From Actinomycetota bacterium (lineage in GTDB: Bacteria; Actinomycetota; Acidimicrobiia; IMCC26256; VFJJ01), in assembly GCA_009886115.1 (NCBI GenBank), contig VFJJ01000042.1:1-60288 (forward strand): 60,288 nucleotides of DNA, given 5' to 3'. This document shows, one piece after another, positions 1,455 through 24,659 of this stretch. Each line of letters begins with the position of its first letter. Within the stretch, counting starts at the first letter, position 1. Below the pieces are notes generated by a model, which ran no database searches, had not been told where the DNA came from, and worked only from the letters and a program-made list of their open reading frames with translations. The position numbers and the translations under genes were made by a program.

Positions 1455-2156
1455 ATGGTCGATGTCGACGTTCGTACCAAGACCGGCGCCGCGTCCGGAA
1501 CTGTGTCGCTGCACGACCGGGTCTTCGGGATCACCCCGAACGTCCCGGTGATGCACCAGGTCGTCACGGCGCAGCTCGCCGGGATCAGGGCCGGGACCCA
1601 CAGCACCAAGACCCGTGGCGAGGTGTCTGGCGGCGGCGCCAAGCCGTGGCGTCAGAAGGGAACCGGGCGGGCCCGTCAGGGCTCGACCAGGGCGCCGCAC
1701 TGGGCCGGGGGTGGCGTCGCCCACGGACCCAAGCCGCGCGATTACTCGCAGCGAACACCCAAGAAGATGGTGGCCCTCGCGCTGCGCTCGGCCCTCTCCG
1801 ACCGGGCCGCTGAAGGCAAGCTGGCCGTCGTCGACGAGCTCGGCTTCGAGACCCCGAGCACCAAGGCCGCGCTGGCCATGCTCGCTGCGCTCGGCGTGAC
1901 CAACGGTCGCGTGCTCGTCGTGCTCGGACGCGACGACGACGTAGCTTGGAAGTCGCTCCGCAACCTCTCCCGCGTCGACGTGTGCCTCCCCGAGGAGCTC
2001 AACACCTACGACGTGCTGTGCAACGACTGGATCGTCTTCACCTCGGCGGCACTCGCCACTGCGACCGACCGCTTGTCCCGTGATCCCAAGCGGGGCGATC
2101 TGGGCGCTGCAGCGGTCGAAGTGTCGGCCTCGGCCCCGAACCTGGGCAAGGAGTGA
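1455..2156 (+). CDS. rplD: 50S ribosomal protein L4
   Basis: L4 lines the peptide exit tunnel and in some bacteria represses its own operon. The protein (233 residues) shows the conserved basic loop with [20 protein letters not shown] and the [13 protein letters not shown] helix. A GGAGG lies inside the end of rplC, 9 bases before ATG 1455; an earlier ATG at 1449 overlaps the rplC stop as ATGA but would leave only 3 bases of spacing. Length is slightly above the family norm because of a 15-residue acidic and Ala/Ser tail. Confidence 0.96.
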
Positions 2157-2160
2157 CCCG

Positions 2161-2454
2161 ATGAGCCGCGACCCCCGCGACATCATCTTGCGACCGGTGA
2201 TCTCCGAGAAGAGCTACGCGCTCCTCGAGACCAACGTGTACACGTTCGTCGTCGCCCACGACGCCAACAAGATCGAGATCCGTCACGCTGTCGAGTCGAT
2301 CTTCGGCGTTCGGGTGCTCAACGTGAACACGCTCAACCGCAAGGGCAAGCGCAAGAAGAACCGCAAGAACGGTAAGTGGGGCAAGCGCTCCGACCAGAAG
2401 CGTGCCATCGTCGCCCTCGCCGAGGGCGACCGTATCGAGATCTTCCAGGGCTGA
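2161..2454 (+). CDS. rplW: 50S ribosomal protein L23
   Basis: L23 sits at the tunnel exit and is the docking site for trigger factor and SRP. The 97-residue product begins [19 protein letters not shown], the standard L23 N terminus, and contains the [17 protein letters not shown] core followed by the basic [18 protein letters not shown] loop. It starts four bases after the rplD stop, so translation is probably coupled. In-frame upstream codons overlap rplD and are not needed. Confidence 0.97.
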
Positions 2455-2467
2455 GGTAGGACAGGTC

Positions 2468-3304
2468 ATGCCCCTCCGCAAACGCAAGCCGACCAGCCCC
2501 GGCCGTCGGTTCCAGTCGGTCTCCGATTTCTCGGAGATCACCAAGACGACACCCGAGAAGTCACTCGTCCGGCCCAAGCCGTCGACGGGTGGCCGCAACG
2601 CCCACGGGCACATCACGTCCCGGCACCGGGGTGGTGGACACAAGCAGAAGTACCGCGTGGTCGACTTCCGTCGCGACAAGGACGGCATCCCGGCCAAGGT
2701 CGCGGCCATCGAGTACGACCCCAACCGCAACGCCCGTATCGCCCTCCTGCACTACCTCGACGGCGAGAAGCGTTACATCATCCACCCCATCGGTGTATCC
2801 GTCGGCGACATGCTGCGCAGCGGTCAGGGTTCCGAGATCCGTCCGGGCAACGCCCTGCCGATGCGCTACATCCCGGTGGGAACGACCGTCCACAACGTCG
2901 AGATGAAGCCCGGCGCCGGCGCGAAGATGGGCCGCAGCGCCGGCACACAGATCCAGCTGATCGCCAAGGAGGGTGACTACGCGACGCTGCGTCTGCCCTC
3001 CAGCGAGATGAGGCGCGTACCCATCGACTGTCGCGCCACGGTCGGACAGGTCGGCAACCCCGAGGCGTCACTCGTCTCGGTCGGTAAGGCCGGTCGATCC
3101 CGCTGGAAGGGCATCCGTCCACAGACCCGCGGTGTCGCCATGAACCCGGTCGACCATCCGCTCGGTGGTGGCGAGGGCAAGACCTCAGGTGGCCGGCATC
3201 CGGTTTCGCCGTGGGGCAAGCCCGAAGGCCGCACCCGCAAGCGTAAGAAGGCGTCTGACGCCATGATCGTCCGTCGCCGCCGCTCGCGCGGCAACCGGAG
3301 GTAA
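2468..3304 (+). CDS. rplB: 50S ribosomal protein L2
   Basis: L2 is required for subunit association and peptidyl transferase activity. The 278-residue protein has the family length and the C-terminal signature [20 protein letters not shown], including the conserved histidine, plus the [14 protein letters not shown] segment that contacts the catalytic rRNA. The ATG is preceded by a purine-rich GAGGTAGGA. It lies 13 bases after rplW and 3 bases before rpsS. Confidence 0.98.
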
Positions 3305-3307
3305 CTG

Positions 3308-3592
3308 ATGCCCCGCAGCCTGAAGAAGGGCCCTTTCGTCGACGACCACCTCCGGGTCAAGGTCGAGCGCATGAACGAGGCCGGAGACAAGCGAGTGATC
3401 AAGACGTGGTCGCGTCGCTCGACGATCACGCCCGACATGGTGGGTCACACCATGGCCGTGCACGACGGGCGCAAGCACGTGCCCGTGTACGTGACCGAAG
3501 CCATGGTGGGTCACAAGTTGGGCGAGTTCTCGCCGACGCGCACGTTCCGATACCACGCCGGACAGGAGAAGGCCGCGCGCAAGCGCAGGTGA
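3308..3592 (+). CDS. rpsS: 30S ribosomal protein S19
   Basis: S19 partners S13 in the 30S head. The 94-residue product opens with [14 protein letters not shown] and contains the [15 protein letters not shown] and [15 protein letters not shown] blocks typical of the family. A GGAGG located in the end of rplB is six bases from the ATG. The stop codon overlaps an in-frame GTG of rplV (GTGA). Confidence 0.98.
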
Positions 3593-3597
3593 TCCCC

Positions 3598-4353
3598 ATG
3601 CCGATCCCCACCGCAGTCACCAGCACACCCCAGGCCCGGGCCATCCTCCGGCATCACCGCCAGGCGGCGTTCAAGGTCCGTGAGGTCCTCGAGCTCATCC
3701 GGGGCAAGTCCGTCGAAGAGTCGCGGGGCATCCTGCGCTTTTGCGAGCGCGGCTCGGCCGACATCGTCCTCAAGCTCGTGAACTCGGCTGCAGCCAACGC
3801 CGAGAACAACCTCGGCATCCCCGACGACGAGCTGTTCGTCGCGGCCTGCTACGCCGACGAGGGCCCCACCATCAAGCGGTGGCGCCCACGAGCCCGAGGC
3901 CGCGCCACCCGGATCCGTAAGCGCACCTGCCACGTGACCTTGATCGTGGCGCGCTACACCGAGATCGAGCTCGGACGCCTGCGGCGCAGCGAGACCACCA
4001 CCCAAGCTGACCGTCGTCGTCGCCTGCGTCGTCGCCGGGAGCAGGACGCGGCCGAGAAGCACGAGCGCAAGGTCGCCGCTCGCGACGAGGCTCTGGCCGA
4101 GGACCACGACCACGACCACGAGGGCGCCGAGCCCGTCTCGCTCGGCAAGGCCTCGGACGTCGCCACCGAGGACGACGGCGGTCCCGCCGAGGTCATCGAG
4201 GACTCGATCATCGACGCTGACGACACGCCATCCGAGGCGAGCGCGGCTGCCGAGACGGACACGGCTGCCGAGACGGACACGGGTGCCGACACGGATGCGG
4301 ATGCGGACACCAGTCCCCCCGGGACCGGCGGCGACGCCGATGAGGAGAACTGA
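3598..4353 (+). CDS. rplV: 50S ribosomal protein L22 with long acidic tail
   Basis: L22 lines the exit tunnel opposite L4. The first ~115 residues are a normal L22 (KVREVLELIRGKSVEES, the NSAAANAENNLG helix, and the KRWRPRARGRATRIRKRTCH hook). The family usually ends near 110-150 residues, but this product has 251. The extra part is first very basic (RRRRLRRRREQDAAEKHERK), then His/Asp rich, then a Thr/Asp/Glu/Ala repeat such as AAETDTAAETDTGADTDADAD. The reading frame stays open to the base before rpsC, so the tail is real coding sequence, though its role is unknown. A GTG at 3589 is an alternative start. Confidence 0.96.
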   Translation: MPIPTAVTSTPQARAILRHHRQAAFKVREVLELIRGKSVEESRGILRFCERGSADIVLKLVNSAAANAENNLGIPDDELFVAACYADEGPTIKRWRPRARGRATRIRKRTCHVTLIVARYTEIELGRLRRSETTTQADRRRRLRRRREQDAAEKHERKVAARDEALAEDHDHDHEGAEPVSLGKASDVATEDDGGPAEVIEDSIIDADDTPSEASAAAETDTAAETDTGADTDADADTSPPGTGGDADEEN

Positions 4354-4356
4354 ACC

Positions 4357-5274
<918 letters not shown>

Positions 5275-18064: not shown

Positions 18065-19308
18065 CCTTGCCGATCGGCCGCGGGGGTCGCCGACAGGAAC
18101 GGCGCGTCGACCCTGCCCTGCTGGCTGGGCAGCTCGTTCTGAACCTGGGCCTGGCGGCAGTGTTCTCGCTCCTCGCCGAGCTCCAGAACGAGTCGGGCTT
18201 CGCCGATTGGGGCCTGGGTCTCATCACCGGATCGGCCTTCCTCACCTCGTTGGTCACCCAGCTCAGCCTGGCCCGCTTCGCCGACCGCGGGCATGCTCGC
18301 CGTCTCCTCGTCGTCGGGCTGGTCGTCGGCGCGTTGAGCATGATCTGGTTCGCGTTCGGAACGACACTCTGGCAGCTCGTCGTGGCCCGAGCGCTCTACG
18401 GGGCCGCTGCCGGCCTGTTCGGACCGGCCAGCCGCCGGATCGCCGTCTCGGCCCGACCGGACAAGACCGGCGAGGTCCTCGGCCTGCTCGGCTCGGCGGC
18501 GGTGGCCGGCTTCCTGGTCGGACCCCCGGCCGCGGCGGGGCTGTTCGAGGCCTTCGGCGTGGAAGCGGCGTTCGTGATCCCCGCGCTGGCGATGCTCGTG
18601 TGCCTGCCGTTCGTCGCCCGTCTGGCCGAGCCGGCCCCGCATCCGCTCAGCGCCACCTCGGTGGGCGCCGTCGGCCGTCTGATACGCCAGCGGGGCGTGA
18701 TCGCCGCCGTGCTGGCCGGGGGCTCGTTCTTCCTCGCGTTCGGCATCTACGACTCGCTGTGGGCCCGCTTCATGGACGATCAGGGCGCCAGCACCGTGTT
18801 CATCGGGCTCTCGTTCACGGCGTACGCGTTCCCGGCGCTGTGTCTGGGAGCGTGGGGTGGACGAATCTCCGATCGATTCGGGGCCTGGCCGTCGACCCTG
18901 CTCGCCGTGGCGGCGACCGTCCCGTTCATCTTCGCCTACGGGTTCATCGGTGACATCTGGCTCCTCGCGGGCTTGGGAGTCGTGCAGTCGGCCGTCGACG
19001 TGATCGGCACGCCCGGGTCGCAGGCGGCGTTGGCCGAGCGGACACCACCGGAGGACCTGGCCGCCGGGCAGGGCCTCGGCGGGGCCTTCGGCACGCTGTG
19101 CGCGGCGATCGCCGGGTTCGCGTCGGGTCCGCTCTACGGCGCGGGCGGCCAGGAGCTGGCCTTTCCCATCGGCGCGGGGTTCATGGCCGCCGTCGCCCTG
19201 GCTGCCTGGCTCATCGGTCGGACCGCTCCGGTGATCGTGCGCCCGGGAGGGACGGGAGCCCCGGGAGGGACGGGCACCGGAGAGGCCTACTCGACCACGA
19301 CGGCGTAG
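18061..19308 (+). CDS. Major facilitator superfamily transporter
   Basis: A 415-residue protein with about 12 hydrophobic segments and the MFS loop 2-3 motif as LARFADRGHARRLL, repeated in weaker form as GAWGGRISDRFGAW in the second half. It starts at GTG overlapping the preceding stop (GTGA), so it is probably cotranslated with the VIT1 fusion. The substrate cannot be told. Its last 22 bases overlap the 3' end of ilvA, which comes from the other strand. The C-terminal tail is Gly/Thr rich, encoded by a short GGGAGGGACGGG duplication. Confidence 0.85.
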   Translation: MTLPIGRGGRRQERRVDPALLAGQLVLNLGLAAVFSLLAELQNESGFADWGLGLITGSAFLTSLVTQLSLARFADRGHARRLLVVGLVVGALSMIWFAFGTTLWQLVVARALYGAAAGLFGPASRRIAVSARPDKTGEVLGLLGSAAVAGFLVGPPAAAGLFEAFGVEAAFVIPALAMLVCLPFVARLAEPAPHPLSATSVGAVGRLIRQRGVIAAVLAGGSFFLAFGIYDSLWARFMDDQGASTVFIGLSFTAYAFPALCLGAWGGRISDRFGAWPSTLLAVAATVPFIFAYGFIGDIWLLAGLGVVQSAVDVIGTPGSQAALAERTPPEDLAAGQGLGGAFGTLCAAIAGFASGPLYGAGGQELAFPIGAGFMAAVALAAWLIGRTAPVIVRPGGTGAPGGTGTGEAYSTTTA

Positions 19309-20534
19309 CCCTCGGACGCGAGTCGGTCGACCATGTGCTGACGGTGACCGGGCCCCCGGGTCTCCAGCGTGAGCCGCACCGAGACCTGGTCGAGCTCGAT
19401 CCGGGAGCCTTCCCGGTGGTGCTCGACCTCCAGGACGTTGAGGCCGAGCGTGCCCACGGCCTGGAGGAATCGGGCCAGCGATCCGGGGACGTCGTCAATC
19501 GTGGCCCGGAGCACCACGAAGCGTCCGGCTGCGGTGAGCCCGTGACGGATGACGCGCCCGAGCAGGATGGCGTCGACGTTGCCGCCCGAGAGCACCACGC
19601 ACACCGGACCCGATGGCGAGTCGATCCGGCCGTCGAGCACGGCGGCGAGCGCGGCGGCCCCGGCGGGCTCCACGACGGCCTTGGCCCGTTCGAGGAGGAG
19701 GAGCAGCGCCCGCGCGATCGAGTCCTCCGAGACCGTCACGATGTCGTCGAGGAACGCGTCGGCGTGCGCCAGCGTGAGCTCCGACACCCGTCCGACACGG
19801 ATGCCGTCAGCCATGGTGTCGACCGAGGCGAGTTGGACGGGTGTCCCCGCATTCAGGGCGGCGATCATCGAGCCCGCACCCTCGGCTTCCACGCCGATGA
19901 TCCGACAGCCCGGCCGGCGGGCTCGGAGCGCGGCGGCCATCCCGCCGGCCAGGCCGCCGCCACCGATGGCGACGACGAACGTGGCGTCGAGCGGCGTCTG
20001 CTCGTCGAGCTCGAGCCCGATCGTGCCCTGGCCGGCCATCACGGCCCGGTCGTCGAACGGTGGCACGAAGTGGGCGCCGCGCTCGGCGACGAGCTGGTGG
20101 GCGCCGTCGATCGCCTCGTCGAGGGAGGCACCGTGGAACACGACCTCGGCGCCGTAGCCCCGCGTGGCTTCGACCTTGGGCAGCGATGCACCCTCGGGCA
20201 TGAACACGGTGCACGGGGTCGAGCAGAGGCTCGCGGCGAGTGCCACGCCCTGGGCGTGATTCCCCGCGCTGGCGGCGACGACGCCGTTGGCAAGGAGCGC
20301 GGGCGGCAGCGACGCGAGGTGGTGGTAGGCCCCGCGGATCTTGAACGAACCGGTGCGCTGGAGGTGCTCGCACTTGAGGAGCGTGCGATGACCGAGGGTC
20401 CGTGACAGACCGGGTGATTCGTGGATCGGCGTGACCCGGGCGACACCGGCAATGGTCGTTCGCGCCTGTTCGATCTCGGCGATGCGGAGGAGCTGCGACG
20501 CCGGCGCGTCGGGGATGGGCGGGTGGTTGGCCAC
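19287..20534 (-). CDS. ilvA: Threonine ammonia-lyase with ACT domain
   Basis: Converts L-threonine to 2-oxobutanoate with PLP. The 415-residue protein has the cofactor lysine in RTGSFKIRGAY (K65), SAGNHAQGVALAA, and the phosphate-binding GGGGLAGGMAAA loop. The C-terminal ~80 residues form one ACT domain (LRATIDDVPGSLARFLQAVGTLGLNVLEVEHHR), the TdcB-like short form. GTG 20534 is chosen because the conserved region starts soon after; a codon 93 bases upstream overlaps the preceding gene. It lies ten bases after that phosphodiesterase gene on the same strand. Confidence 0.93.
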   Translation of the reverse strand: MANHPPIPDAPASQLLRIAEIEQARTTIAGVARVTPIHESPGLSRTLGHRTLLKCEHLQRTGSFKIRGAYHHLASLPPALLANGVVAASAGNHAQGVALAASLCSTPCTVFMPEGASLPKVEATRGYGAEVVFHGASLDEAIDGAHQLVAERGAHFVPPFDDRAVMAGQGTIGLELDEQTPLDATFVVAIGGGGLAGGMAAALRARRPGCRIIGVEAEGAGSMIAALNAGTPVQLASVDTMADGIRVGRVSELTLAHADAFLDDIVTVSEDSIARALLLLLERAKAVVEPAGAAALAAVLDGRIDSPSGPVCVVLSGGNVDAILLGRVIRHGLTAAGRFVVLRATIDDVPGSLARFLQAVGTLGLNVLEVEHHREGSRIELDQVSVRLTLETRGPGHRQHMVDRLASEGYAVVVE

Positions 20535-20544
20535 GGTGCGCCGT

Positions 20545-22113
20545 TCAGCCGACGGTCTCGGGCACGCCCAGGTACACGAACCCGTAGCCCTCGTCGCGGA
20601 ACTGCAACCCGGCGTCTCGCAGCGCATGGTCCCAGTCGCCGGTGACGTCGGGGTTCGACTGCTCCATCCCGTGATCGGACACGACGGCGAAGGCGGTGTC
20701 GTCGAAGGCTCCAGCCCCCTCGATGGCCTCGAGGATGGCGCCGATGCGGGCGTCGGTGTCGTGGATCGATGCCGCGGCGATCTCCGAGTACGGCCCGCCC
20801 TCGTGGAACGCGGCGTCGGTCAACGAGAAGTTCACGAAGCAAAAGCGAGGACGCGGTGGCGTGACGCCCCGGTACCCGTCGCCCTTCCAGAGCGCGACCG
20901 CCTGCTCGACGGCCAACCCGTCGACCATCGTCGACCAGGCGTAGTCCTTCGACGGTCGTGCGAACCGCTCGGTCGCGTGGGCGACGTCGGTGGCCCGGGC
21001 CGGGAACGGGATGCCCTCGCCGTCGCGCAGCCAGGCGAACGACGAGTACGTGGCGCCGACGTCGCAGGGCTCGTTCACGGCGAACGTGACCCCTCCCTCG
21101 CCCGTCCAGGTACGGCTGACGGCCTGGTAGAGCGTCTCGACACCCGGTGTGAGCCATTGCATGGCCGTGGGCCAGGTGGCCATGGAGTTCGTGACGACCT
21201 GCTGCTCTCGCGCCCGGTCCCACCAGGCGTTGTGGAGGATTCCGTGGGTGCCCGGGAAGGCGCCGGTGACGGCCGAGGTGTGGTTGGCCAGGGTGATCGT
21301 GGGGAGACACGACAGGGCACCGTGGCCGAACGTGGTGCCGATCGCAGCGAGTCGGGCGATGTTCGGCGCCTCGCCGCGGTCGATGAGGTCGTAGAGCACG
21401 TTGGCGTTGGTACCGTCGAGCAGGAAGACCACGGCGTGGCGGGGCCGGGCCGTGCCGGTGGTCGCGGCGCCGCCGGTGTCGATGATCGTGTCGAGCACCC
21501 GACCGTCCTGCGCTGCGAGGTAGCGGGGACGGTCGTCGTCGAGCGGTGCGACTCCGAGCAGCGCGGCCAACGTCGGGGCGAGGTCGACGATGCGCGCCGC
21601 CTCGGCGACGCGCCCGCGCTCTCGCACCCCGGCCCCGGCGACGATCAGCGGTCCCCGGGCCTGCACCACGCCGAGCGAACCGTGCTCGCCTTGGTGCCCG
21701 CCCCGTTCGGCCCAGTGATGCGCCGCCGTGTGCTGCACGCAGAGGTCGGGCGCGTTGGGAGACCGGAAGAGCTGCTCGACCTGCTCGTAGGCCTGCGGGT
21801 AGCTGTTGGCGCTGCGGTGCGGATGGGGTTCGGCCCGCTCGTCGGCCAGGGGTGCGAAGACCCCGGGGTCCTGGCGGGCGAGCGGGTTGCGGCCCGTCTC
21901 GGCCACCACGTGGCCACCGGGCTCGAAGACCACGGAGCCGTCGACGGCGTGGGCCTCGCACCGACCCTCGCGCTTCAGGAACACCATGTCGACGATGGGC
22001 TCGAGCGCCGGATCGACCAGGACGTCGAGCGCCCGCTGGAGGTCGTGGTGTTCGTGGTGTTCGTGGTGCTCGTCGCGCGACACGTTGACCAGGTTAGGGC
22101 CCGCCCGCCGCAT
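20545..22113 (-). CDS. Alkaline phosphatase/nucleotide pyrophosphatase superfamily enzyme with permuted motif order
   Basis: A 522-residue enzyme of the type I phosphodiesterase fold. From about residue 226 it reads as a normal NPP core: VVFLLDG (D233), the nucleophile region PTITLANHTSAVTG (T274), the LTDAAFHEGG pair (D433, H437) and VVSDHGM (D480, H481). It stops soon after. The part that normally follows, with a GxHG ligand and a DLAPTLAALLG segment, is instead found at residues 142-187 (GEHG, VDLAPTLAALLG). This looks like a circular permutation, or a second truncated domain in front. Near the N terminus HEHHEHHEHH is encoded by a 9-bp repeat. The start is uncertain: ATG 22113 or GTG 22083. 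Confidence 0.8.
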   Translation of the reverse strand: MRRAGPNLVNVSRDEHHEHHEHHDLQRALDVLVDPALEPIVDMVFLKREGRCEAHAVDGSVVFEPGGHVVAETGRNPLARQDPGVFAPLADERAEPHPHRSANSYPQAYEQVEQLFRSPNAPDLCVQHTAAHHWAERGGHQGEHGSLGVVQARGPLIVAGAGVRERGRVAEAARIVDLAPTLAALLGVAPLDDDRPRYLAAQDGRVLDTIIDTGGAATTGTARPRHAVVFLLDGTNANVLYDLIDRGEAPNIARLAAIGTTFGHGALSCLPTITLANHTSAVTGAFPGTHGILHNAWWDRAREQQVVTNSMATWPTAMQWLTPGVETLYQAVSRTWTGEGGVTFAVNEPCDVGATYSSFAWLRDGEGIPFPARATDVAHATERFARPSKDYAWSTMVDGLAVEQAVALWKGDGYRGVTPPRPRFCFVNFSLTDAAFHEGGPYSEIAAASIHDTDARIGAILEAIEGAGAFDDTAFAVVSDHGMEQSNPDVTGDWDHALRDAGLQFRDEGYGFVYLGVPETVG

Positions 22114-22236
22114 CCCGAGCGCCGGGGGGTGCAGTTTTCGTGACCTGACGTGGTTGGATCCACCCGTCGTCGGCTCCACGGCGGCTATCCCTCGGCTCTA
22201 CGTTGGCTCCGGTTCGGCGCCGGCGTCGGCTCCGGA

Positions 22237-22265: not shown

Positions 22266-22408
22266 GACCGAGCCTGTTGCAGGGTCGTGCCGCGCGAACG
22301 AGTCGTTGATCGACCGTCCGTCTCGAGCGGCTCAGCGGCCCGGTACTCGCTTTTGTCATGTCGTACGTCACCGAGATCCGTCTCGAGCCAGAAACAAGGG
22401 GTTCCCGC

Positions 22409-22855
22409 GTGCGGACCTTCACGCCCAAGCCCGCCGACATCACCCGGCAGTGGCACGTTGTCGACGCCGACGGAGCCATCCTCGGCCGTCTGGCCAGTGA
22501 GATCTCCGGCGTGCTGCGCGGCAAGCACAAGCCGATCTACGCGCCGCACGTCGACACCGGCGACTTCGTGGTCGTCATCAACGCCGACAAGATCGTCGTG
22601 ACCGCCTCCAAGGACGAGAAGAAGGAGTACATCCGCCACACCGGGTATCCCGGTGGGATCAAGCGGGTGTCGTACCGCGACCAGATGAGCACGCACCCCG
22701 ACCGCATCATCAAGGCCGCCGTCAAGGGCATGCTCCCCAAGGGGCGCCTGGGCCGGCAGATCATCGCCAAGCTCAAGATCTACCCGGGCCCCACGCACCC
22801 CCACGCCGCACAGCAGCCCCGGTCGCTCGACCTGCCGACCGCCCGCCGGGCTTAG
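22409..22855 (+). CDS. rplM: 50S ribosomal protein L13
   Basis: An early-assembling large-subunit protein of 148 residues. It has [22 protein letters not shown], the [19 protein letters not shown] block and [31 protein letters not shown] 22409 gives the family N terminus ([10 protein letters not shown]); a codon 51 bases upstream would add an unconserved leader. AACAAGGGG precedes it. rpsI follows 23 bases later. Confidence 0.96.
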
Positions 22856-22878
22856 CCCTTCTCGACTCGGAGCAACTC

Positions 22879-23271
22879 GTGTCCAAGCCTCTCATCCAGT
22901 CGACCGGGCGCCGCAAGGAAGCCGTCGCACGCGTTCGTCTGCGTCCCGGCACCGGCATCGTCACGTGCAACAAGCGCACGTTCGAGGAGTACTTCCCGAA
23001 CGAGACGTTCCGCATGGTGGCCACCGAGCCGCTGCGCCTCACCCAGCTGGCCGAGGTCTACGACATCGACGTCACCCTCGACGGCGGCGGTGTGAGCGGG
23101 CAGTCGGGCGCGTTGCGCCTGGGTATCGCCCGGGCCTTGGTGTCGCTCGACGAAGAGCTTCGTCCGGTGCTGAAGAAGGCCGGGCTCCTCACTCGTGACG
23201 CCCGCGAGAAGGAGCGCCGCAAGTACGGCCTCAAGAAGGCCCGTAAGGCGCCCCAGTACTCGAAGCGGTAG
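22879..23271 (+). CDS. rpsI: 30S ribosomal protein S9
   Basis: S9 reaches into the 30S P site with its C-terminal tail. The 130-residue protein has [19 protein letters not shown] at the start, [19 protein letters not shown] in the middle and the tail [20 protein letters not shown] ending in the conserved SKR. The start is GTG with CGGAG upstream. It forms the usual pair with rplM; glmM follows 35 bases later. Confidence 0.97.
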
Positions 23272-23306
23272 GTCGTCATTTCGTCGATACCGGGCCGGGT
23301 CCGTTC

Positions 23307-24659
23307 GTGAGCGTCACCTTCGGGACCGACGGCGTACGCGGCATCGCCAACGACGAGCTGTCGGTCGAGCTGACGCTGGCGTTGGGCCGGGCGGGAGCGC
23401 GCGTCCTGGGAGCCGGACCGGGCTCGCCGTTCCTGGTGGGACGCGACACGCGCCGGTCGGGCCAGCTCCTCGAAGCGGCCCTCTCAGCCGGGCTCGCCGC
23501 CGAGGGGTGCAACGTCGAGAGCCTGGGCGTGGTGCCGACGCCGGCCATGGCCTACATGTCGCAGGATGCCGGCGCGCCGGCCGCCATGATCTCGGCCAGC
23601 CACAATCCCTTCGGCGACAACGGGATCAAGTTCTTCGCCGCAGGGGGCCGCAAGCTGGCCGACTCGGTTGAAGCCGAGCTCGAGTTGGCGCTGCACGAAT
23701 TCCTGCACACGCCGACGATCGCCGGTCCGACTGGCGCGGACGTGGGGACCGTCAGGCGTCGGCGGATGGGCGACGCCAACGAGCCCTACGTGTGGCACCT
23801 GGTGAGCACGCTCGAAGACCGGACGCTGATCGGTCTCAAGGTCGTCCTCGACTGCGCCAACGGCGCCGCCAGCACGGTCGCGCCCGAGGTGCTGCGAGCG
23901 CTCGGCGCCGACGTCACGGTCATCCACGCCCGACCCGACGGGGTGAACATCAACGACCACTGTGGCTCGACGTATCCCGCCGACCTGGCCGCGACCGTGG
24001 TGCGATTGGGCGCCGACGCCGGGCTGGCCTTCGATGGCGACGCCGACCGGGTGATGGCCGTGGATGCCTCGGGGACCGTCGTCGACGGTGACGAGATCCT
24101 CGTGGTGTGCGGGATCGACATGGCCGCACGTGGGCTGCTGCCGGGCAACCGTCTGGCTGCCACGGTCATGTCGAACCTGGGAATGCGCCGGGCGCTGGCC
24201 GACGCCGGCATCTCGATCGTCGAGACCAAGGTCGGCGACCGCTACGTGCTCGAGGCCATCGAGGAGCACGGCCTGGCCCTCGGGGGCGAGCAGTCGGGTC
24301 ACGTGATCTTCTCCCGGCACGCCACGACGGGCGACGGGATCCTCACGGGAATCCAGTTGCTCGACTGCGTTGTTCGCTCGGGGAGATCGTTGGCGGTTCT
24401 GGCGGCGACGATGACGCGCTATCCCCAGGTGTTGCTGAACGTGCGCGTGCGCGACCGTCTGGCGCTGGCCGAGGCCGGCGGGTTCTGGGACGCGGTGCTC
24501 TCGATCGAGGCCGAGTTGGGCGAGAGCGGCCGGGTGCTGGTGCGACCGTCAGGTACCGAGCCCGTCGTGCGGGTCATGGTGGAGGCCGCCTCCGAAGCCG
24601 CCGCCGGGCAGGCGGCCGCGCGGCTCGCCGACCGTCTCAAGGCCGACCTCGGCGAGTAG
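23307..24659 (+). CDS. glmM: Phosphoglucosamine mutase
   Basis: Converts glucosamine-6-phosphate to the 1-phosphate for UDP-GlcNAc. The 450-residue protein starts VTFGTDGVRGIAN, has the phosphoserine loop ISASHNPFGDNGIKFF (about residues 95-110), the metal loop DGDADRV and the C-terminal VRPSGTEPVVRVMVEA phosphate-binding site. It begins at GTG. The rpsI-glmM-glmS order is common in actinobacteria; here a toxin-antitoxin pair and a DUF808 gene separate glmM from glmS. Confidence 0.97.
   Translation: MSVTFGTDGVRGIANDELSVELTLALGRAGARVLGAGPGSPFLVGRDTRRSGQLLEAALSAGLAAEGCNVESLGVVPTPAMAYMSQDAGAPAAMISASHNPFGDNGIKFFAAGGRKLADSVEAELELALHEFLHTPTIAGPTGADVGTVRRRRMGDANEPYVWHLVSTLEDRTLIGLKVVLDCANGAASTVAPEVLRALGADVTVIHARPDGVNINDHCGSTYPADLAATVVRLGADAGLAFDGDADRVMAVDASGTVVDGDEILVVCGIDMAARGLLPGNRLAATVMSNLGMRRALADAGISIVETKVGDRYVLEAIEEHGLALGGEQSGHVIFSRHATTGDGILTGIQLLDCVVRSGRSLAVLAATMTRYPQVLLNVRVRDRLALAEAGGFWDAVLSIEAELGESGRVLVRPSGTEPVVRVMVEAASEAAAGQAAARLADRLKADLGE

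Follow-up and report, generated by a model that had tools for sequence, protein, structure and literature searches.

The 60,288-nucleotide stretch of an Acidimicrobiia genome analysed here (contig VFJJ01000042.1; hereafter the window) contains a gene whose product carries the catalytic motifs of NPP-type phosphodiesterases in an order foreign to those enzymes, and the question is whether this order reflects an assembly error, an added domain or a natural circular permutation. We read the protein as a natural circular permutant within the alkaline-phosphatase superfamily, nearest to the NPP-type phosphodiesterases, with a probability of roughly 0.92 for the permuted fold; the predicted hydrolase step is held a little less firmly, and the suggested substrate class (phosphodiesterase/nucleotide pyrophosphatase) at no better than even odds.

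The gene lies in an open frame at 20545-22179 on the minus strand, encoding 544 residues counted from a GTG at 22179, and residues are numbered in this frame throughout. Within it, the ATG at 22113 is residue 23 and the GTG at 22083 is residue 33; because the matches of most relatives start at about residue 35-55, GTG 22083 is provisionally the likelier start codon. In canonical NPPs the nucleophile is followed by the DxxxH, DHG and GxHG motifs, whereas in this protein GxHG stands ahead of the nucleophile. The initial annotation, made from the sequence alone, had placed GxHG and a DIAPTLAALLG-type segment before the nucleophile core, and this is what the frame contains: the N-half carries the metal-binding GEHG at residues 164-167 (including His166) and DLAPTLAALLG within a longer segment that begins with VDLAPT at residue 198 (VDLAPTLAALLG), and these precede VFLLDGT (residue 251, including Asp255), PTITLANH (residue 293, including Thr296), HGILHN (with Asn317), DAAFHEGG (residue 455, including Asp455 and His459) and VSDHGM (residue 500, including Asp502 and His503). 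The same annotation had the chain stopping soon past SDHGM, and only 39 residues do follow that motif. Residues 250-539 align with positions 2-255 of the 342 in the Pfam profile PF01663 (Phosphodiest; E 3.9e-36), and profile positions 256-342 find no match downstream of the core. Since GxHG precedes the nucleophile and PF01663 extends only to position 255, the protein is classified as a permuted variant and not as an ordinary NPP. Feature coordinates are given in Table 1.

Table 1. Coordinates, in the window, of the gene, its two halves and the residues discussed in the text.
Feature	Position	Strand	Remark
Gene for the predicted permuted alkaline-phosphatase-superfamily enzyme	20545..22113	-	from ATG 22113
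N-half (residues 33-245)	21445..22083	-	corresponds to C-terminal part of canonical enzymes by profile match
C-half (residues 246-544), nucleophile core to DHG motif	20548..21444	-	corresponds to N-terminal part of canonical enzymes
His166 of GEHG, in the N-half, in the place of the canonical last metal ligand	21682..21684	-	invariant, 56/56
Linker joining the old C- and N-termini (residues 237-240)	21460..21471	-	pLDDT <50
Asp255, DG-motif metal ligand	21415..21417	-	invariant, 56/56
Thr296 in PTITLANH, predicted nucleophile	21292..21294	-	invariant, 56/56; aligns with Xac NPP PSLTFPNH
Asn317 of HGILHN	21229..21231	-	Asn in 54/56; aligns with Xac NPP HGIVHN
Asp455 and His459, DxxxH metal ligands	20803..20817	-	each invariant, 56/56
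Asp502 and His503, SDHGM metal ligands	20671..20676	-	each invariant, 56/56

Two proteins are described as related by circular permutation when the first part of each is related to the last part of its partner (accessible text of PMC3320104), and the two halves of the window protein relate to canonical enzymes in this way. Alignments of the N-half (A2) and of the C-half (A3), with 25 diverse members each, were compared using hhalign with an alignment of seven canonical proteins (A4). A2 columns 128-216 matched A4 columns 344-414 of 416 (E 2.3e-15, the sole match) and A3 matched A4 columns 20-246 (E 4.7e-21). These E-values are for one pair compared at a time, and they are not blind, as the seven canonical proteins had been picked for matching both profiles in canonical order. 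Both halves are therefore homologous to the superfamily by profile comparison, each to the opposite end of the canonical chain. The whole family alignment (A1), set against A4, aligned through the C-half only. The N-half residues ahead of profile column 128 (about 95) had no hhalign match in the seven canonical proteins, and only single canonical proteins reach beyond this column (e.g. L117, from profile position 61); from their position, these residues probably correspond to the stretch that links DHG to GxHG in canonical enzymes.

A search of the phylum with the A2 profile gave matches in 46 of 396 genomes; the loci of the best 30 of these genomes comprise 12 permuted proteins (that of the window's own genome included, and one split), three of a longer form with four halves and 15 of canonical order, some of the last group having weak core-profile matches. 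Against solved structures, A2 gave weak matches to downstream parts of ENPP4 (313-374 of 401), LtaS (289-327 of 436), PafA (481-522 of 549), iPGM (470-510 of 538) and sulfatases, with a best E of 0.0019 and similar scores for designed beta-trefoils on another part of the profile. A phmmer comparison with solved structures aligned residues 247-335 and then 442-510 collinearly with Xac NPP; a third stretch placed residues 159-213 out of order on Xac NPP 318-371, at -3.1 bits and so too weak to count alone.

AlphaFold2 was run on A1, and its model, derived from the family's own alignment, predicts that both halves pack into one compact fold (mean pLDDT 95.0, pTM 0.94), with pLDDT below 50 only at model residues 1-3 and at linker residues 205-208 of the model (residues 237-240 of the frame). 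Foldseek and VIA-align found NPPs, PafA, SPAP and sulfatases over approximately model residues 200-512, which is the C-half only. The VIA alignments cover residues 44-295 of Xac NPP (2gsn; Z 18.3, rmsd 2.7, 242 residues), 24-411 of PafA (Z 18.3, rmsd 3.8, 286 residues) and 32-405 of SPAP (Z 19.1, rmsd 3.3, 281 residues), and the best Foldseek hit has an E of 1.3e-9 and a TM of 0.37 by query length. These aligners follow chain order, and with such methods a permuted protein would be expected to align over the C-half only. The structure prediction and NPP comparison proposed at the outset thus returned the single confident fold, with the comparison itself reaching the C-half. We infer that the N-half packs in the NPP manner, on the basis of that fold and the sequence profiles and not of a superposition.

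The initial annotation had named a separate or unrelated domain at residues 1-220 as the outcome that would contradict a permutation. Such a protein would have arisen by addition of an unrelated N-terminal domain to a truncated phosphodiesterase without its last metal ligand, a history consistent with the near absence of canonical matches over the first 95 or so N-half residues and with a Pfam scan in which the 25 N-half sequences yielded nothing better than E 0.0026 (Sulfatase, five members). We nevertheless judge it highly improbable, as the N-half has a GxHG ligand and a VDVAPT...LLG segment, it matches the canonical C-terminal end as given above, its His is invariant in the family and the model forms one fold; a separate N-terminal domain was rejected on the profile match and the pTM. 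A domain-swapped dimer, in which a permuted chain would lend its N-half to the active site of a second subunit instead of its own, is also improbable, though somewhat less so: the short linker could in principle permit a swap, but the single chain is already predicted with confidence.

To what extent the order recurs was determined in 395 genomes of the class (E up to 1e-10), 68 of which, the window's own included, contain a match. In 60 of the 68 (own included) there is one match in permuted order that begins no later than query residue 53 and ends at residue 536 or beyond. Six of these 60 genomes were flagged with one internal stop; their frames are uninterrupted from query residue 23-60 through 539, which places the flagged stops in the aligned upstream part. 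The matches in the other eight genomes (G178, G218, G212, G158, G139, G355, G298 and G016) are partial: some are pieces on different contigs or in different frames, one is a split frame, and others are diverged proteins. A scan of named genomes, which reaches close relatives only, confirmed 11 loci, collinear throughout, seven of them records already in the class search. Among the loci of the best 30 of the 46 genomes matched in the phylum search, the permuted order is found in other classes too (L077-L083, with L081 split); genome profile searches were confined to the phylum. Plasmids gave one weak match, to a phosphonoacetate hydrolase that spans 27% of the query, and a search of phages for relatives gave no match.

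The genes beside the permuted gene recur as well. In the window, rplM, rpsI and a phosphoglucomutase-family (glmM-like) gene adjoin it divergently at 22358-24659 on the plus strand. Of the 29 loci from the window's taxonomic order (L003-L031), 26 have rplM-rpsI in divergent orientation beside the gene, and in 23 of these glmM is present too; in other orders of the class, L050 and L052 keep rplM-rpsI-glmM and the remaining fetched loci show none of these genes. A sequencing or assembly join error that swapped the parts of an ordinary gene, which had been named early on as a possible refutation, found no support beyond the general point that the assembly consists of 224 contigs, of which the window is one. 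The end-to-end recurrence of this order in a further 59 genomes of the class, its presence elsewhere in the phylum and the conserved rplM-rpsI neighbours reduce the chance of such an error to almost nothing, and it was rejected because the order recurs across genomes. The search for homologs suggested by the initial annotation accordingly produced dozens of independent assemblies with the same order. The swapped order is not an artefact and is conserved across many actinobacterial genomes.

Several members of the family depart from the usual single frame. The permuted genes L062 and L081 are each in two open frames (209 + 405 aa and 289 + 152 aa, respectively) with breaks at different places, which may represent sequencing errors or decaying genes. 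Locus L064 has an 875-aa frame (1850-4474, plus strand) in which the final 200 or so residues resemble the last part of the permuted family (34% identity) behind unrelated sequence, and this could be a chimeric contig or a gene remnant. Locus L063 (3806-5752, plus strand) encodes a diverged permuted protein with 31% identity and about 120 extra C-terminal residues.

Conservation was assessed in A1, which consists of the window protein and 55 relatives. Left out were repeat loci (L003, L004, L007, L011, L024, L039 and L055), L001 as the window's own copy, the split frame L062, L065 because a contig end truncates it, and L064, of which only the C-terminal part is alike. A further 13 of the 68 genomes matched in the class search lay outside the set of loci fetched, and some rows miss their first residues because starts were chosen by script. 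Asp255, Thr296, Asp455, His459, Asp502, His503 and His166 are invariant in all 56 proteins, Asn317 is Asn in 54, and a QDG motif ahead of the linker is conserved (Gln 53/56, Asp 56/56, Gly 56/56). The full ligand set that had been read from the single sequence is thereby present across the family, with the Thr/Ser nucleophile and six Asp/His ligands of two metals typical of the superfamily; we take the metal-ligand and nucleophile roles of these residues from work on NPPs and alkaline phosphatase. The site of Asn317 is the phosphate-binding Asn position of NPPs (Asn111 in Xac NPP).

Judged from these invariant catalytic residues, the enzyme is probably active. That the permutation is real and the protein a non-hydrolase, such as a protein of binding or regulatory function in which the metal site is conserved, is unlikely: no substrate can be named from the neighbouring genes, as Pfam applied to 20 neighbouring ORFs (a rough script pick from 12 loci) gave no common functional clue, but Thr296 and the six ligands vary in none of the 56 proteins and Asn317 in only two. 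For the permuted hydrolase, the likeliest activity would be that of a phosphodiesterase or nucleotide pyrophosphatase acting in the cytosol, suggested because Asn317 occupies the NPP Asn position and the window protein has no signal peptide evident by eye.

In the mechanism we propose, the old C- and N-termini would be fused through a short flexible linker at about residues 237-245, and the new termini would open past the DHG motif. By eye, the break falls between the short strand EGYGFVYLG, which comes after the DHG motif and would now lie close to the C-terminus, and the helix DLQRALDVL, which succeeds that strand in canonical enzymes and would now lie close to the N-terminus; the canonical protein L119 is continuous across the break point (GGSAAILVNPPGDTETAAAAEKAL), as are the inner domains of the four-half proteins described below. 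Asp255, Asp502 and His503 would hold one of two divalent metals, and Asp455, His459 and His166 the other, with His166 supplied by the N-half. Thr296 would then attack the phosphorus to form a phospho-threonine intermediate, as in NPPs.

The window protein shares its nucleophile core, metal ligands and NPP-position Asn with the NPP family (PF01663; Xanthomonas Xac NPP, ENPP1-7), and differs in that the part bearing the last His precedes the core instead of following it. PafA and SPAP/PhoK are the top structural matches of its C-half (Z 17.1-19.1), although their order is canonical and the NCBIfam match to PafA is weak (E 7.8e-13, 47.7 bits against a cut-off of 650). The core also resembles that of PhnA (1ei6, TIGR02335; E 4.1e-12, and Z 16.1 for 3szy), at 45.9 bits against a cut-off of 407.55, and PhnA has the canonical motif order; PhoY scores 27.1 bits against a cut-off of 1000, so that the protein falls below the equivalog cut-offs of all three.

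Natural permutation of catalytic motif order is described in the SGNH hydrolases AlgX and PatB1, which belong to a different superfamily (accessible text of PMC9487903). The available part of a survey of SCOP superfamily outliers lists circular permutation for two of 41, neither of them alkaline-phosphatase-like, and gives the PhnA/alkaline-phosphatase-like entry an inserted subdomain near the C-terminus, not a permutation (PMC3779223). Among the open-access matches listed, no circular permutation is reported for the alkaline-phosphatase superfamily, and with an earlier report elsewhere possible, the permuted order appears to be new within the known fold, going by sequence and model. Members of the superfamily are recognised by their fixed motif order, which a conserved natural permutant shows to be unnecessary; the permutation also explains the partial profile annotation of these proteins, and the permutant is a ready system for studies of folding and permutation.

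Four genomes of the 396-genome phylum sample have open frames of 1181-1389 residues with matches in the order N-half, core, N-half-like, core (L102-L105). The outer pair is strong (first A2 match 1e-26 to 1.6e-38, last A3 match 3.4e-48 to 9e-58) and agrees with the permuted family in profile and order. The inner core matches at 1e-7 to 1e-23 and the inner N-half-like A2 match is weak to absent (0.003 to 27). In the two of the four that were scanned, PF01663 covers the inner domain almost completely (L103 residues 283-668 to profile positions 2-340 of 342; L105 residues 293-688 to positions 3-341). An alignment of all four inner domains (A6) is collinear with canonical A4 over columns 22-411 (E 2.1e-27), and A2 matches the inner domain's end (E 2.5e-5). 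Each four-half protein thus appears to be a permuted domain whose linker harbours a canonical one, and this complete nested domain distinguishes them from the window protein. AlphaFold2 on a four-half protein, with only four sequences, gave a model too poor for use (pLDDT 33.9, pTM 0.27). Proteins of this form are rare: beyond the four in the phylum sample, none turned up among 16 genomes from the order to which G395 belongs, 24 and 66 genomes from the classes of G395 and G658, respectively, or five from the class of G404.

A tree of core segments was built from 29 permuted, 4 outer, 4 inner and 4 canonical rows, 41 in all. The outer cores group with the permuted family, where they join L063 (99/93), and the inner cores group with the canonical proteins (99/99). 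Recent tandem duplication of a permuted unit as the source of the four-half proteins was rejected (p-AU 0.008 for a clade of inner and outer cores), in a test whose group was named after the tree had been viewed and in a tree with only four canonical rows, three of them mutually close, with long branches for C_L119 and P_L063, and with L077, L080, L082 and L083 cut at an approximate start. The four-half outer cores, with L063, may be the first branch among permuted proteins (support 51/86.8).

Permutation by duplication predicts functional duplicated intermediates, according to the accessible text of PMC3320104. The permuted family might stem from a multi-domain ancestor, a stage of which survives as the four-half proteins: a two-domain chain would have been opened within one domain and the inner domain later lost, giving the 500-residue Acidimicrobiia enzyme. 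We regard this history as possible and rather doubtful; the nested proteins fit it without proving it, and later insertion of a canonical domain into a permutant fits as well. The nested relatives may make the evolutionary route to the permutation testable. By eye, L102-L105 start with signal-peptide-like stretches and L102 and L104 end in an LPxTG-like sorting tail, and unlike the window protein these relatives may be secreted and wall-anchored.

On the same strand, the next gene in the window (19287-20627, minus strand) is of the PALP family and threonine-dehydratase-like by eye, and a match to it adjoins the permuted gene in several relatives. The window's genome encodes two further PF01663 proteins, L069 and L070, both of canonical order by eye, with GDHRPSG...VDLAPTIAARLG and GHGSL, respectively, near the chain end.
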